From assembly GCA_026126215.1 (NCBI GenBank), contig JAHCJQ010000007.1, forward strand, positions 1-64,000: a stretch of 64,000 nucleotides of DNA. The letters run 5' to 3'. Below are positions 31,556-39,320 of this stretch, piece by piece. The translations under genes and the position numbers were made by a program. The stretch is from Alphaproteobacteria bacterium. GTDB taxonomy: Bacteria; Pseudomonadota; Alphaproteobacteria; Ferrovibrionales; Ferrovibrionaceae. Every line of letters begins with the position of its first letter. Within the stretch, counting starts at the first letter, position 1. The notes beneath the pieces are model-generated. The model saw only the letters and a list, made by a program, of their open reading frames with translations. It was not told the origin of the DNA and made no database searches.

Positions 31556-34500
31556 TCAGCGGAAGTTCCGACCTGAGGGGAGTACGGCCGCGATCTCGGC
31601 GGAGCGGACGTCGTTGCCCGGCCGGCGCACCTCATCGGCGCGGGCCAGCGCCTGACCGAAGGCGTCCGCCGCATCAGTCGCATCCGCCGCCGCCAGGCGC
31701 GGCAGCAGGCCGGAAAGATCGTGCAGCCGGTCGGCGATCAGGTGAATGACGAGGCCTTCCCGCTGCAAGCGGCCGCTGGCGCCAAGCAGGCGGCTGCCGA
31801 GCAGTTCCTGACGGAAGCGCTGAAAGACCGACGGCCAGATCATCAGGTTGGCGATGCCACTTTCATCCTCGAGCGTGGCGAAGATGACGCCGCTTGCCGT
31901 GCCCGGCCGCTGACGGACCAGCACCAGGCCGGCCACCGCCAGCCGCCGCCCGTCCCTGGCCGACGCGAGGCGGGCACAGGGCATGAAGCCATCCCGGGCC
32001 AGCTCCGCCCGTAGCAGGCCGGCCGGATGGGCGCGCAGCGAGAGGCCGAGCTGGCGATAATCCTGCACCACCTGTTCGCCGAGCGTCATCGGTGGCAGCG
32101 ACACGTCCGGTTCCGTGCCGCCATCGACCGGCGGCAGGTTGCCCCCCGCCCCGCCCGCTTCCTCCATGGCGGCGAAGAGCGGCAGCGGCCGGTCGCCGAG
32201 CGCCTTGATCTGCCAGAGCGCCTGCCGCCGGTCGAGGCCGAGACCGGCGAAGGCATCGGCGCGCGCCATCGTCTCCAGGCTCGCCGGGGAAAGCCCGGTG
32301 CGCCTCCAGACTTCGCGCAGGGTGCGGAACTCGCCGTCGGCACGGGCGGCGAGCAGGCGCGCCACTTCCATCTCGCGCAGGCCCCTGGCCTGGCGGAAGC
32401 CCAGGCGCAGCGCCGGCCCACCGCCGGCGCGGGCACTGTTCTCCAGGCTGCAGTCCCAGTCGCTGCGATTGACATCGAGGGGGCGCAGCTCCACGCCATG
32501 CTCGCGCGCATCGCGCAGGATCTGCGCCGGTGCGTAAAACCCCATCGGCTGGCTGTTGAGCAGGGCGCAGGCGAAGGCCGCCGGATAATGCCGCTTCAAC
32601 CAGGCCGAGACATAGACCAGCAGCGCGAAGGAAGCGGCATGGCTTTCCGGAAAACCGTACTCGCCGAAACCCTCGATCTGGCGGAAGCAGCGCTCGGCGA
32701 ACTCCCGCTCGTAGCCGCGCGCCACCATGCCCTCGATCAGCTTGCGCTGGAAGGTATGGATGGTGCCGACCTTGCGGAAGGTTGCCATGGCCCGGCGAAG
32801 CTGGTCGGCTTCCTCCGGCGAGAATCCGGCGGCGACGATGGCGATGCGCATGGCCTGTTCCTGGAACAGCGGCACGCCGAGGGTCTTGCCCAGCACCTCG
32901 CGCAGTTCCGGCGAAGGCAGGTCCGGCTTCTCCTCGCCGCGGCGCCGGCGCAGATAGGGATGCACCATGTCGCCCTGGATCGGGCCGGGGCGCACGATCG
33001 CCACCTCGATCACGAGGTCGTAGAAATTGCGCGGCCTGAGGCGCGGCAGCATGGTCATCTGCGCCCGGCTTTCCACCTGGAAGACGCCGATGGAATCCGC
33101 CTGGCAGAGCATGTCGTAGACGCAAGGGTCTTCCGGCGGCACGTCCGCCAGCAACAGGGGGCGGCCGTGATGGATGCCGACCAGTTCGAGACCCTTGCGG
33201 ATGCAGGTCAGCATGCCGAGCGAGAGCACGTCCACCTTCAGCATGCCAAGCGCGTCGAGATCGTCCTTGTCCCATTCGATGACGGTGCGCTCCTCCATCG
33301 CCGCGTTCTCGATCGGCACCAGGCTCGAAAGCGGGCCGCGCGTCATGACGAAGCCGCCCACATGCTGGGAGAGGTGGCGCGGAAATCCCTGAATCTCTCC
33401 CACCAGGTCGAGCAGCCGGGCGATGGTCGGATCGTCGGGATCGAGGCCGGCGGCACGCACATGGCGGGCATCTATTCCCTCTCGCCCCCAGCCCCATATG
33501 CCGCGGGCGAGGCGGTCCACCGCGTCGAGGGAAAGGCCGAGCGCCTTGCCGACATCGCGGATGGCGCTGCGCGGTCGATAGCTGATCACCGTCGCCGCGA
33601 GGCCGGCCCGGTCGCGACCATATTTGGCGTAGATGTACTGGATCACCTCCTCGCGCCGCTCATGCTCGAAATCGACGTCGATGTCCGGCGGCTCGTTGCG
33701 CGAGGCGGAAATGAAACGCTCGAACAGCAGGTCGATGCGCGCCGGATCGACGGCGGTGATGCCGAGGCAGAAGCAGACCGCCGAATTGGCGGCGGAGCCG
33801 CGGCCCTGGCAGAGGATGCCGCGGGCGCGTGCGAAGCGGACGAGATCGTGCACGGTCAGGAAATACGGCGCGTAACCAAGCTGGCCGATCAGTGCCAGTT
33901 CGTGCGCCAGCGCGGCGCGCACCTTGGGCGGCAGGCCCTCGGGGTAGCGCTCGGCTGCATGCTGGCGGACAAGGCGTTCGAGTTCCTGCTGTGGCGTGGC
34001 GCCATCCGTCGTCGTCTCGAGCGGGTATTCGTAACGCAGTTCGTCGAGCGAGAAGCGGCAGGCATCGGCGACCTCCCCCGCCCGGGCGAGCGCCTCCGGC
34101 CAGCGGTGGAACAATCGCCCCATCGCCGCCGGCGCCTTGAGATGCCGTTCGGCGTTGGCGAATAATCGCCGGCCGGCCTCGTGGATGCTGACGCCTTCGC
34201 GGATGCAGGCCAGGATGTCGAGCAGCGGGCGGCGTTCCGCGACATGGGCATGCACGTCGTTGCTGGCGAGAAGCGGCAGGCCGGCTTCGGTGGCGAGCGC
34301 GACCAGCCGCGCGATGCGTCGCAGGTCGTCGCCGCGATAGAGATGCCGCGCGGCGAGCGAGGCCCGCCGGCCGGCCATGGCCTTGAGGCGGGCGAGATGC
34401 TGGCGGAAGGCGTCGTCGAGGCGGCCTTCCGGCAGGGCCACCAGCCACTGGCCTTCGGCGAATGCCTGGAGATCGGCGAAATAGAGGGCGCACTTGCCCT

Positions 34501-34801
34501 TCTCCGTCCGCCGCTTGCCCATGGTGAGCAGTTCGCAGAGCCGGCCATAGGCGGCACGGTCCTCGGGGAAGCAGAGCAGGCTCGGCGCATCGAGGAAATC
34601 GAGGCGGGCGCCGACCACGAGGCGGATGCCGGCGCGTTTCGCCGCGACATGGGCGCGCACCACGCCGGCCAGGCTGTTGCGGTCGGCGATGCCGATGGCG
34701 GAATAACCGAGTGCCGCCGCCGCCAGCGCCAGTTCGTCCGGATGGGAGGCGCCGCGCAGGAAGCTGAAGTTGCTGGTGACCTCCAGCTCCACGTAGTTCA
34801 T
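31556..34801 (-). CDS. dnaE2: Error-prone DNA polymerase DnaE2
   Basis: Damage-inducible C-family polymerase responsible for SOS mutagenesis in bacteria with ImuA and ImuB. 1081 residues. The N-terminal PHP domain begins YVELEVTSNFSFLRGASHPD. The catalytic core has PDIDVDFEHERREEVIQYIY, diagnostic of DnaE2, plus CQGRGSAANSAVC and the later QVESRAQMTMLPRLRPRNFY. A C-terminal OB-type domain (SGVIFATLEDESGIANLMIW) is present. Start overlaps the imuB stop by 4 bases; together imuA-imuB-dnaE2 form one LexA-controlled operon. Confidence 0.96.
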   Translation of the reverse strand: MNYVELEVTSNFSFLRGASHPDELALAAAALGYSAIGIADRNSLAGVVRAHVAAKRAGIRLVVGARLDFLDAPSLLCFPEDRAAYGRLCELLTMGKRRTEKGKCALYFADLQAFAEGQWLVALPEGRLDDAFRQHLARLKAMAGRRASLAARHLYRGDDLRRIARLVALATEAGLPLLASNDVHAHVAERRPLLDILACIREGVSIHEAGRRLFANAERHLKAPAAMGRLFHRWPEALARAGEVADACRFSLDELRYEYPLETTTDGATPQQELERLVRQHAAERYPEGLPPKVRAALAHELALIGQLGYAPYFLTVHDLVRFARARGILCQGRGSAANSAVCFCLGITAVDPARIDLLFERFISASRNEPPDIDVDFEHERREEVIQYIYAKYGRDRAGLAATVISYRPRSAIRDVGKALGLSLDAVDRLARGIWGWGREGIDARHVRAAGLDPDDPTIARLLDLVGEIQGFPRHLSQHVGGFVMTRGPLSSLVPIENAAMEERTVIEWDKDDLDALGMLKVDVLSLGMLTCIRKGLELVGIHHGRPLLLADVPPEDPCVYDMLCQADSIGVFQVESRAQMTMLPRLRPRNFYDLVIEVAIVRPGPIQGDMVHPYLRRRRGEEKPDLPSPELREVLGKTLGVPLFQEQAMRIAIVAAGFSPEEADQLRRAMATFRKVGTIHTFQRKLIEGMVARGYEREFAERCFRQIEGFGEYGFPESHAASFALLVYVSAWLKRHYPAAFACALLNSQPMGFYAPAQILRDAREHGVELRPLDVNRSDWDCSLENSARAGGGPALRLGFRQARGLREMEVARLLAARADGEFRTLREVWRRTGLSPASLETMARADAFAGLGLDRRQALWQIKALGDRPLPLFAAMEEAGGAGGNLPPVDGGTEPDVSLPPMTLGEQVVQDYRQLGLSLRAHPAGLLRAELARDGFMPCARLASARDGRRLAVAGLVLVRQRPGTASGVIFATLEDESGIANLMIWPSVFQRFRQELLGSRLLGASGRLQREGLVIHLIADRLHDLSGLLPRLAAADATDAADAFGQALARADEVRRPGNDVRSAEIAAVLPSGRNFR

Positions 34802-36282
34802 GCGAATAGCCCGTGCAGGTACCAGCGCGCGCCCTCGCGGTAGATCCAGTAACGCCGCCCCGTCACATCCTCGATCCGGTAATAGTCGCGCGCGCGGGCA
34901 CCCGCCCCCTGCCGCCACCATTCCGGCTCGATCCGTTCCGGTCCTTCGCTGCCGCCCAGCAGGCGGCGGACGCGCCGCCAGCGGAAGGCGCGCGGAGATT
35001 CCTCCTCGCCATCCGCCATTTCCATTTCGATCGGCTCGGGCGCGGGCAGCAGGCAGAGCGGACGCAGCCTTTCTTCCTCTTCCCATGCGCCCGGCTGGCG
35101 GCCGGAATGGGGCGCCGGCCCCAGTCGCATGGCCCGTTCCGGCCAGTGGCTGTCGCCGGGCAGAAGCCGCAGCACGCGGGCCGGGCTCAGGCGGTTGACC
35201 AGGCGGTCGAGAAGTTGCGCGAGATCGCGCGTGGCTCCGGCATCCGGGGCCAGGCCAGCCTGCGCCGGCGGCAGCGGATTGGATTCGACCGCTTCCAGAA
35301 TCATTGCCTCGATGCCAAACCCGGGATCGATGCACTCCACATGGGCCGCGAACAGGCGGTGGATATGGCCGGCCTCGCGGCTCGGCTGCGCCAGGCCGAG
35401 GGCAAGGCGCTGCGTCGCGCCATCGACACGGTAGCAGACCAGTTCGAGCCGGCTCAGCCCCAGCCCGCTCCGTTCCATCAGCCGGCAGAGTTCGGCGATC
35501 AGCCGTTCCAGCGCGACGTCCAGATCCTCCGCCCGGCCGATGGGTTCGGCGAAAGCGATACGACAGCGCCGCTCCGCCGGTGGATGGCGTGGCGAGATCG
35601 GCTCCATGGCTTCACCCAACAGCAGATCGAGGCGCTGGCCGGGCTGCAGGCCGAAGCGGCGGGTGAGCGGCGCGCGTGGCAGGCGCGCCAGATCGCCGAC
35701 GCGGCGCAGGCCAAGGCGGGCCAGATCCGCCACCATCTCCGCCGGCAGGCGCAGCGCCGCCGCCGGCAGCGCCAGGAGCGGCGCGAGACCGGCCGAGGGA
35801 TCGAGGCGGCCGCCATCGCCATGGCGCGCCCAGGCCCAGGCGGCGGCCGGACTGCCGGCCAGCGCCAGCCGGTGATGCAGGCCGAGACGCGCAAGATGCC
35901 GCCCGATCTCCTGCAACAGCGCCGCCTCGCCGCCGAACAGATGGGCAAGGCCCGAAACATCGAGGATCAGCCCGTCCGCGCCATCCACCGCGATCCAGGG
36001 GGAGAAGCGGCCGCACCAGTCGGCGAGCGCGGCCAGTCCTTCCGCATCGCCGGTCGGATCGGCCGGGGCGCTGGACAGGCCGGGCAGCAGCGCCCGCGCC
36101 TCGGCGAGCGGCATGCCGATACCAAGCCCCCCAGCCGCCGCCAGGGGATCAAGTGCTGCCAGCCGCAGCCCGCCCGGCCCCGCCGTCACCAGTGCGAGCG
36201 GCTGTCCCGCCTCATCGGGATGCTGCCGGCACCAACGATCGGTCGGCCAGTGGGGCAGCCAGACGGAAACGAAACGCCGCAT
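34798..36282 (-). CDS. imuB: DNA polymerase Y-family protein ImuB
   Basis: Catalytically inactive Y-family polymerase relative that bridges DnaE2 and the sliding clamp in translesion synthesis. 494 residues. Begins MRRFVSVWLPHWPTDRW, lacking the catalytic Asp found in active polymerases; a single Asp remains in LILDVSGLAHLFGGE. Helix-hairpin-like LRRVGDLARLPRAPLTRRFG follows near 190. The gene overlaps dnaE2 by 4 bases; its 5' end overlaps imuA by 71 bases. Confidence 0.94.
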   Translation of the reverse strand: MRRFVSVWLPHWPTDRWCRQHPDEAGQPLALVTAGPGGLRLAALDPLAAAGGLGIGMPLAEARALLPGLSSAPADPTGDAEGLAALADWCGRFSPWIAVDGADGLILDVSGLAHLFGGEAALLQEIGRHLARLGLHHRLALAGSPAAAWAWARHGDGGRLDPSAGLAPLLALPAAALRLPAEMVADLARLGLRRVGDLARLPRAPLTRRFGLQPGQRLDLLLGEAMEPISPRHPPAERRCRIAFAEPIGRAEDLDVALERLIAELCRLMERSGLGLSRLELVCYRVDGATQRLALGLAQPSREAGHIHRLFAAHVECIDPGFGIEAMILEAVESNPLPPAQAGLAPDAGATRDLAQLLDRLVNRLSPARVLRLLPGDSHWPERAMRLGPAPHSGRQPGAWEEEERLRPLCLLPAPEPIEMEMADGEEESPRAFRWRRVRRLLGGSEGPERIEPEWWRQGAGARARDYYRIEDVTGRRYWIYREGARWYLHGLFA

Positions 36283-36961
36283 CCTCCCACTCCACTATCC
36301 AGTCTCCGGGCCGACCGCCACCCCGCGCCCGCCGCAATTCGACCCGCCAGCATGGCACCGCCCGGCCCGGCATCGCGACGACATGCCAGCGGGTGGCGGC
36401 CGCCGAAGCGCTGGCTCTTCCACCAGGCGGCGGCAACAGGAAAGCGGCGACGCCACTGGTGCCGGCCGCGAGCTGAAGCCGTCGCGAGGCGGACAGGCCA
36501 CTCGCAACCCCCTCGCCGATCACCGCCGCCAGATGGCGGCAGCGCAAGCCCTCCTCCATGGCCCAGAGCAGTTCTGCCGGCCGCTCCGCCAGCACCAGCA
36601 GCAGCCGGTCCGGCCGCAGGCCGAAGCGGACCAGGCCGGGACCATACAGGGCGCCATCCTCCTGCCCCGCGCCGCGCAGCCGGCACCACAGCACTGGCGC
36701 CTCGCCCCGCGCCCCGGCGAAGCGGCCGGCCAGCGCGGCTACGAAACCGCGCGCCGCCGCATCGCCCGCCGCCCCGCTTACCTCGTGCAGCAGGCCCGCG
36801 CCCAGGCCGCCATCCGGCAGTGCCGCGTCGAGCGGGGCGATGCCAAACGACAGGATCTGCGGGCGAGTGGCGGCTGGGCCAGCCTCGATCGCCCGGGTGC
36901 GGGTTTTCAGGATGGAGATATCTGTTTTTTTACAGTCCTCTATCACGAATATCTGAGACAT
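36212..36961 (-). CDS. imuA: SOS cell-division-inhibitor-like/RecA-fold protein ImuA
   Basis: ImuA, the RecA-related accessory protein of the ImuA-ImuB-DnaE2 mutasome. 249 residues from the ATG at 36961 (MSQIFVIED). An ATG ten codons further upstream, at 36991, lies inside the LexA operator, so the shorter form is preferred. SFGIAPLDAALPDGGLGAGLLHE is a typical ImuA segment; the Walker A loop of RecA is not conserved. The C-terminal part is Arg- and Gly-rich. Confidence 0.88.
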   Translation of the reverse strand: MSQIFVIEDCKKTDISILKTRTRAIEAGPAATRPQILSFGIAPLDAALPDGGLGAGLLHEVSGAAGDAAARGFVAALAGRFAGARGEAPVLWCRLRGAGQEDGALYGPGLVRFGLRPDRLLLVLAERPAELLWAMEEGLRCRHLAAVIGEGVASGLSASRRLQLAAGTSGVAAFLLPPPGGRASASAAATRWHVVAMPGRAVPCWRVELRRARGGGRPGDWIVEWEDAAFRFRLAAPLADRSLVPAASR

Positions 36962-36985
36962 GGTCTGAATAGGACAGTCGATTAT

Positions 36986-37000
36986 GTTCATGTAATGTTC
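36986..37000 (-). promoter_or_regulatory. LexA-binding SOS box of imuA-imuB-dnaE2
   Basis: Exact match to the alphaproteobacterial SOS box GTTC-N7-GTTC: GTTC at 36986-36989, seven bases, GTTC at 36997-37000; on the reverse strand GAAC-N7-GAAC. It ends 25 bases upstream of the preferred imuA start. CATAAT directly follows it on the reverse strand and may act as a -10 element. Confidence 0.85.
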
Positions 37001-38245: not shown

Positions 38246-38776
38246 TCAGCCGACCACGCTGTATTTTTCGATGGCCTTGTTGAGCGTCTCGCCGAGCTGG
38301 TGGCCGATGTCGCCACCATCGCCCTTTACCCGCCCCTTGATGACGGCATTGATGGCGTCGATATGCGCCTTGATGATCGCCATGTGATTGTCGCTCGTCC
38401 CGGCGCCGCTGGTGGTGAAGGAATAGAGCGATTCCGCGAAGGTCGTGATGAGCGGATAACCAAACGTGCCGCCCTGCCCCTTCAGTTCATGGGCGAGCTG
38501 GTTGATGCTGCGGAAGCTGGCCATGCGATGCGCCGTGTCGCGACCTTCGGCGGCGCTGAACTCCGCATAGAGCTGGGTCGTGTAGCCGCCGACCCAGTCC
38601 GGATAATCCTCCGCCATTTTCGCGAACTCGGCTTCCGCCTTCTCCAGCGCCTCGCGGCTGAAGCCGCCCAGTTGCCCGCTGCCGCCAAGCCCCATCGCCT
38701 TCTCCTTGAGGCGGTTGCGGAAACGGTAGAAGCGGACGCGGACCTGCCCCTTGCCGCGCGGCGTCGTGCTAGTCAT
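38246..38776 (-). CDS. HPt-domain phosphotransfer protein
   Basis: 176 residues. The C-terminal half is a histidine phosphotransfer four-helix domain: His96 in NQLAHELKGQGGTFG is the phosphorylatable residue in the expected HxxKG context. The N-terminal 30 residues are basic. Its ATG at 38776 overlaps the end of the upstream receiver gene by 8 bases, so the two are made together. It would normally relay phosphate between a histidine kinase and a response regulator; no kinase is nearby. Confidence 0.82.
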   Translation of the reverse strand: MTSTTPRGKGQVRVRFYRFRNRLKEKAMGLGGSGQLGGFSREALEKAEAEFAKMAEDYPDWVGGYTTQLYAEFSAAEGRDTAHRMASFRSINQLAHELKGQGGTFGYPLITTFAESLYSFTTSGAGTSDNHMAIIKAHIDAINAVIKGRVKGDGGDIGHQLGETLNKAIEKYSVVG

Positions 38777-39320
38777 GAACGATCTCCACTTCCGGATCGG
38801 CATCGGTGAGCAGGCGCCGGTCATCGTCCATGAAGACCTGCTGGCGCCGCCTGCGGTCCGGACCGAAATAGGTCATGGTATGGACGAACTGGCGCGGCCG
38901 CTCGATCACCTGCTGCAGGCGTCCCGCCACGCCCTGCACGGAAAAGGGCTTCGCCAGGATCTCGGTCACTCCCATGTCCCGGGCCTCGGCGACGCGCTTC
39001 GGGTCGGCATAACCCGTGACCATGACGAAAGGAATGAAGCGGTTCGGGCTTTCCTTGGCGCGACGCACCCAGCGCAGAAGCATCAGCCCGTCCACCGGCG
39101 ACATCTGCCAGTTGGAGAAAATGACATCGACCGACATCATGCCGGCCTTCATCGGATCCTGCGCCATCAGCTTGAGAATCTCGATGGCCTCACCGCCATG
39201 CTCGGCCTGCCGCACCTGGCCGACGCTGAGCGCCTTCAGCGCCATGGTCAGGAGCTGGCGCATGTAGCGGTTGTCGTCGACGACCAGGACCGTGAAACGT
39301 TCGAGGTTGTAATTCGTCAT
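38769..39320 (-). CDS. CheY-like receiver protein lacking the phosphoacceptor Asp
   Basis: 183 residues with an N-terminal receiver domain. The acidic pair Asp15-Asp16 (VLVVDDNRYM), Thr102 (VMVTGYA) and Lys124 (ILAKPF) are conserved, but the phosphoacceptor position is Asn70 in DVIFSNWQMSP, where CheY-type proteins have Asp (SDWNMP). The codon is AAC. A C-terminal extension with YFGPDRRRR follows. It is probably a pseudo-receiver working by protein contact, or one whose Asn is not functional; see findings. Confidence 0.85.
   Translation of the reverse strand: MTNYNLERFTVLVVDDNRYMRQLLTMALKALSVGQVRQAEHGGEAIEILKLMAQDPMKAGMMSVDVIFSNWQMSPVDGLMLLRWVRRAKESPNRFIPFVMVTGYADPKRVAEARDMGVTEILAKPFSVQGVAGRLQQVIERPRQFVHTMTYFGPDRRRRQQVFMDDDRRLLTDADPEVEIVHD

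Follow-up and report, generated by a model that had tools for sequence, protein, structure and literature searches.

A probable Cle-type receiver with asparagine at the phosphoacceptor position and its HPt neighbour in Alphaproteobacteria

We describe a CheY-like receiver that carries asparagine where CheY has its phosphoacceptor aspartate, ends in an arginine-rich tail resembling that of the Cle proteins, and is encoded beside an HPt protein (Table 1). The two genes lie in a stretch of 64,000 nucleotides (the window) of an alphaproteobacterial genome (assembly GCA_026126215.1, contig JAHCJQ010000007.1). We propose that this Cle-type receiver no longer takes phosphate, is set by c-di-GMP, and works with, and probably gates, the HPt protein; taken as a whole, the mechanism stands, in our judgement, at an even chance of being right.

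Table 1. Features of the receiver and HPt genes, in window positions
Feature	Position	Strand	Detail
CheY-like receiver (REC) ending in an arginine-rich tail of Cle type	38769..39320	-	183 aa; Pfam Response_reg PF00072, E=4.2e-17
Asp15-Asp16, acidic pair of receiver pocket	39273..39278	-	Asn clade: D/E15 in 37/37 rows, D16 in 36/37
Asn70, phosphoacceptor (CheY Asp57) position	39111..39113	-	codon AAC; codon reading and CheY alignment
Gln72, two residues past Asn70	39105..39107	-	Q in 35/37 Asn-clade rows
Thr102, switch Thr/Ser	39015..39017	-	T or S in 36/37 Asn-clade rows
Arg114, alpha4 region	38979..38981	-	candidate counterpart of CleA R111 / CleD R113; placed by spacing, without Cle alignment
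Lys124, pocket Lys	38949..38951	-	37/37 Asn-clade rows
Arginine-rich region, residues 143-170	38811..38894	-	R143, YFGPDRR(RR), degenerate second repeat FMDDDRR with R169
HPt protein, CheA-P1-like	38246..38776	-	176 aa; shares 8 bases (38769-38776) with receiver gene
His96, predicted HPt phosphorylation site	38489..38491	-	aligns with CheA P1 phospho-His
His138, second conserved His in 'KAHID..GRVxGDGGxIG'	38363..38365	-	34/34 readable Asn-group rows

The receiver and its arginine-rich tail

The receiver matched CheY in the PDB with E=6.4e-12. In this alignment Asn70 sits on the D of 'SDW', and D15/D16, Thr102 and Lys124 sit on their CheY equivalents. An earlier sequence-only reading of the window had claimed both the asparagine at the CheY Asp57 position and the retention of the acid pair, the threonine and the lysine; codon reading and the CheY alignment confirmed it on each point. 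Having no Asp at the phosphoacceptor position, the protein counts as an aspartate-less receiver (ALR). Pfam at curated scores detected no domain in it besides the receiver domain. AlphaFold models of the HPt protein and of the receiver, for which the input held the window and L031-L035 only, had mean pLDDT of 44 and 46, too low to serve as a test of any point.

In the Cle proteins, a tandem [YF]xGP[DE][RK]R forms the core of the c-di-GMP-binding region, as reported by Nesper et al. (PMC5677366); the arginine-rich peptide can be grafted and still binds c-di-GMP, and the R156A substitution in CleD strongly reduces or abolishes binding (PMC5677366). The first repeat of the window receiver's tail matches this pattern, at the only such site in the window's reading frames of at least 60 codons. 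The first repeat and flanking Arg fit the Cle motif, whereas the second repeat is just FMDDDRR, with R169 kept. Since this second repeat lacks Gly-Pro, affinity to c-di-GMP may be lower. The distances from N70 to R156 (86 residues) and to R169 (99) are those of E70-R156 and E70-R169 in CleD by the published residue numbers (PMC5677366). The distance from N70 to R114 (44) equals that of CleA D67-R111, but E70-R113 of CleD is 43 (PMC5677366), one residue shorter, so the assignment of Arg114 is uncertain.

Among the relatives described below, the first-repeat pattern matched 35/37 Asn rows, 26/26 Asp rows in which the receiver is fused to HPt (fused-Asp), 46/52 separate-Asp rows, 10/10 Glu rows and the single Ala row (1/1). 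R143 is present in 37/37 Asn-clade rows. R156 is kept in 36/37 Asn, 26/26 fused-Asp, 50/52 separate-Asp and 10/10 Glu rows; for R169 the counts are 37/37, 26/26, 48/52 and 10/10, and for R114 they are 36/37, 26/26, 52/52 and 10/10 (88/88 for Asp and Glu rows together). L057, odd in both tail and pocket, has an altered tail, and in L084 the tail is out of frame.

Nesper et al. found Caulobacter CleA D67A and CleD E70A to be functional and tail mutants not to be; c-di-GMP switches CleA and CleD, and phosphorylation is not needed (PMC5677366). A Cle-type tail could thus explain how the phosphoacceptor was lost. The window protein is very probably a Cle-type receiver, an identity well supported by its sequence. 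We infer that it binds c-di-GMP, which we take as its input because the tail points that way.

Distribution and history of the asparagine

The search for relatives covered 41 genomes close to the window's own, 18 of its order, 385 drawn from the class, and a genome contig collection; five further orders (25, 9, 15, 15 and 10 genomes) were also searched, and the sets overlap. Loci were fetched for part of the matches: about 100 of the listed class-search places had no locus, and 40 of these regions, picked down the list of class-search matches, were then fetched. The 135 receiver rows gave 127 distinct ones, the window counting as one row (L001), after we dropped L031 (identical to L002), two L042 rows (same place as L011) and the exact duplicates L081, L044, L082, L083 and L018.

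Of the 127 distinct receivers, 78 carry Asp at residue 70, 38 carry Asn, 10 Glu and 1 Ala; because the relatives were gathered by their likeness to the window protein, shares of residue types or of HPt neighbours are no census. Across the class sample the Asn form is patchy, occurring in at least 14 of 385 genomes (the Ala form in 1). The 39 genomes with either form span 19 genera. Plasmid searches returned a single record, from Niveispirillum cyanobacteriorum.

The sequence-only reading had called for an alignment of orthologues to see if Asn is fixed, and had named Asp-bearing orthologues, which would point to a strain-specific mutation or a sequencing error, as evidence against it. Asn proved fixed in near orthologues and in moderately distant ones (38 distinct), and no Asp was found at this position within the Asn clade. 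Sequencing error or strain-specific change is ruled out, because Asn also stands in another genome of the genus (99% identical) and in 36 more distinct sequences. Besides the window, 25 clade sequences encode the residue by AAC and 12 by AAT, and none by GAC or GAT. Gln72 is absent from the fused-Asp, separate-Asp and Glu groups (0 in each), and by these alignments it changed together with Asn70. In addition, 33 of the 183 receiver positions are kept in at least 36/37 Asn-clade rows. Synonymous codon variation without Asp, the coupling to Gln72 and the conserved positions together indicate that the loss of the phosphoacceptor is old and maintained. The asparagine is judged derived, not ancestral, because more distant relatives carry Asp.

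Trees were built with FastTree, and one quick tree with treekit. In a FastTree tree of the receiver alone, the 38 Asn sequences and the Ala sequence formed one clade with support 0.865, which was 0.982 when receiver and HPt were joined (110 rows). The clade was recovered with column 70 left out (support 0.979 and SH-aLRT 95), and an interim IQ-TREE tree, which is without support values, also placed the 39 together. On the tree built without column 70, residue 70 changed at least 4 times, which fits one change from Asp to Asn, one to Ala and two to Glu. L043 (genome G382), the one with Ala, lies inside the Asn clade and has an altered pocket (D16E, N70A, K124M) with tail and HPt His intact. Glu stands at the phosphoacceptor position, with Ser/Thr at that of Asp16, in two further Cle-type lineages (L019, L020 and L022-L024; L037-L039 and L041), the second of which has an HPt-like neighbour with Phe for His.

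The HPt partner and its linkage to the receiver

The window HPt protein matched Pfam Hpt (PF01627) with E=0.0012 and 19.5 bits, below the curated cut-off of 24.6; of the 67 family members in the alignment, the same model matched 61 at E<=0.1, the best of them at 3.1e-10. A profile of the 67-row family, compared with the PDB, gave 6ff6, named BRIC1, as top match (E=1.6e-9) and also CheA P1 domains (2ld6, E=2e-5; 1tqg, 5e-5; 8c5v, 6e-5), and in its alignment His96 falls on the CheA P1 phospho-His. His96 stands in 'AHELKGQGGTFGY', where the AHELKG context agrees with HxxKG, as expected of a predicted phosphorylation site. HPt domains are four-helix bundles; the AlphaFold model is all-helical, but its mean pLDDT is just 44. 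We file the protein as HPt-like, of the CheA-P1 type.

His96 is present in every readable Asn-group row (37/37, made up of 35 Asn relatives, the window and the Ala relative L043), a count that leaves out L057 (gap) and L087 (too short). This conservation and the CheA P1 alignment bear out the earlier claim of an HPt gene with an intact His96. Elsewhere it is kept in 20/26 fused-Asp, 29/41 separate-Asp and 0/5 Glu rows (49/67 over the Asp rows). The difference in loss, 0/37 versus 18/67, has a Fisher p of 2e-4, suggestive only, as the rows are related. Because 18/67 Asp rows lack His96, phosphotransfer is not what every HPt-like partner does. His138 is more widely conserved than the predicted phospho-His, being found in 26/26 fused-Asp, 36/41 separate-Asp and 5/5 Glu rows.

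The 8-base overlap of the two ORFs, also claimed from sequence earlier, was confirmed, and it recurs in L002, L031, L003, L033, L034, L043 and L044. An HPt match adjoins all 38 Asn sequences, partial or short in L054, L057, L072, L084 and L087. For the 78 Asp sequences, HPt is adjacent in 41, fused in the same ORF in 26 and undetected in 11, 2 of which border the end of a contig or stretch. Just outside the Asn clade, the nearest relatives carry Asp in 27/28 and are mostly REC-tail-HPt in a single ORF. In the receiver tree the sister clade holds 26 Asp fused, 1 Glu fused and 1 Asp separate sequence (support 0.785), whereas in the joined trees the Asn clade is nested among the fusions, the inner node there having low support (0.516; 17 on the tree without column 70). 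The Asn pair would thus be either the sister of the fusions or the descendant of a fused ancestor.

The window's genome (L175, contig C157) and the sister genome (L176) each encode another REC-tail protein, one that has Asp (IAIVDFLMPG) and in both adjoins an HPt-like gene (AHDLRGQGATFGYPLV); this Asp-bearing receiver and its HPt-like neighbour could belong to the same network. GGDEF proteins occur in 39/39 Asn/Ala-clade genomes, a weak point in favour of c-di-GMP as input, GGDEF being common.

In the wider neighbourhood, a gene for a metallo-beta-lactamase-fold hydrolase (PF12706 in one member tested) was seen in 13/25 Asn-clade stretches (L134, L136, L138-L143, L145-L147, L151 and L152), and 2-oxoacid:ferredoxin oxidoreductase genes in 10/25; L033 and L137 are one place in this count. 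Neither cluster was found in window positions 28001-50000 or in 20 Asp-relative stretches, some of them short, and we therefore set conserved neighbours aside as a clue to function. Positions 31556-36991 (minus strand) of the window hold what by eye is an ImuA-ImuB-DnaE2 mutagenic repair cassette.

A possible c-di-GMP-set gate and its relation to known systems

In the mechanism that we propose, c-di-GMP would bind the arginine-rich tail, with Arg114 helping, and change the face of the receiver, which in one of its two states would dock on the HPt protein. His96 of the latter would be phosphorylated by a kinase or a receiver, and the docked receiver would permit or block phosphoryl traffic through His96 without accepting phosphate, so being no sink. 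Physical contact between receiver and HPt is something we infer from gene order and fusion only, and the direction of control between them is likewise presumed. Gating is the simplest account of a pocket that in nearly all members is intact except for its phosphoacceptor, an HPt His that is strictly kept, and fusions in the nearest relatives. The sequence-only reading had already suggested a sink-free regulator of HPt. That part stands: with both domains fused in the nearest non-Asn relatives, it offers the most economical link. The Cle-type tail was overlooked.

It is unlikely that the receiver targets FliM, like CleA and CleD, with HPt co-transcribed and serving another pathway. The tail and its spacing are as in these proteins, and FliM is present in 26/39 clade genomes, the window's own included. 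However, it was not found in 13/39 genomes that keep the module (9/28 of those of good quality; draft genomes can miss genes), which makes the flagellar switch unlikely as sole target. Moreover, HPt lies beside every Asn sequence and is fused in the nearest relatives, and the window's genome encodes a separate Asp-bearing CheY-like receiver near FliM. Phosphorylation of the receiver on Ser69, which precedes Asn70, we consider very unlikely. Appleby and Bourret are said to have found, in 1999, that the CheY D57N mutant is phosphorylated at Ser56; 'SNW' mirrors that context, the pocket residues are kept, and Ser is found in 32/37 clade rows versus 25/78 Asp rows. Yet 5/37 rows (L048, L050, L051, L078 and L092) have Ala there, so that Ser69 is not needed generally.

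Deamidation of Asn70 to Asp in the folded protein, followed by phosphorylation by HPt, was the other suggestion of the sequence-only reading, and we regard it as highly improbable. Reversion of a receiver Asn to Asp has been reported (PMC4395418), and the DD, T and K of the pocket are kept. Nevertheless, Asp is one transition away and is encoded by no clade member examined (38 Asn, 1 Ala); AAC and AAT both occur as the codon, Gln72 is fixed alongside Asn70, and the Ala relative has lost K124. The asparagine of that reading proved fixed and its HPt neighbour constant; its working, deamidated Asp finds poor support, and it had passed over the Cle-type tail. Decay of the receiver lineage to a non-functional state is most improbable: the pocket lost in L043, the odd tail and pocket of L057 and the out-of-frame tail of L084 would fit decay, but the many positions kept in nearly all Asn-clade rows and an Asn codon that varies only synonymously do not.

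If a c-di-GMP-set receiver does gate its HPt partner, two signalling currencies, c-di-GMP and phosphohistidine, would be joined in one small module. More tentatively, and with less confidence than in the mechanism above, we suggest that Alphaproteobacteria may have second-messenger-operated phosphorelay gates, in which c-di-GMP would open or close phosphoryl flow through a P1-like HPt. Such gates would consist of a receiver, an arginine-rich tail and a P1-like HPt, encoded by paired genes or joined in a single REC-tail-HPt protein, and the receiver of the Asn branch would be a pure c-di-GMP-driven shutter that recognizes HPt and cannot take phosphate. The clade would then be a natural experiment, the phosphoacceptor lost once and tail, pocket and HPt kept, and HPt suggests itself as partner for many Cle-type receivers of unassigned wiring.

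Asn receivers (as ALR) and the Cle tail are already known; the pairing or fusion of a Cle-type receiver with HPt was not found in the literature searched, and 'hpt' has 0 occurrences in the main text of Nesper et al. (PMC5677366). The pairing may have been overlooked because members of this HPt family often score close to the Pfam threshold or under it. The window receiver has in common with the Cle proteins a CheY-like REC, a C-terminal [YF]xGP[DE][RK]R tail and a candidate Arg in alpha4 (PMC5677366). A further likeness is that the phosphoacceptor of the Cle proteins is dispensable (CleA) or Glu (CleD E70) (PMC5677366). The window receiver has Asn in place of their Asp or Glu, and differs also in its degenerate second repeat and in its constant HPt neighbour, or fusion in relatives. 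Receivers without Asp make up 2.0% of receivers (PMC12632262), and Asn accounts for 16% of ALR substitutions (PMC4395418). The ALR RitR likewise has Asn (Asn53) at the phosphoacceptor position (PMC4395418, PMC12632262), with several further pocket substitutions (PMC4395418); the window receiver, in contrast, keeps the rest of the pocket, has a tail of second-messenger type and is encoded beside an HPt.

VieB of Vibrio cholerae, likened here to the window receiver by description, is an auxiliary receiver that binds an Hpt-containing sensor kinase and blocks its autophosphorylation and phosphotransfer (PMC4352251). By analogy it offers a precedent for a receiver blocking phosphotransfer, although VieB keeps its Asp and is regulated by its own phosphorylation (PMC4352251). 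With CheA the module has a P1-like HPt in common, which in the window is a separate protein and in relatives is fused to REC. Caulobacter HmrX, also compared by description, is a P1-like HPt that acts on the motile-sessile switch (PMC11481889).
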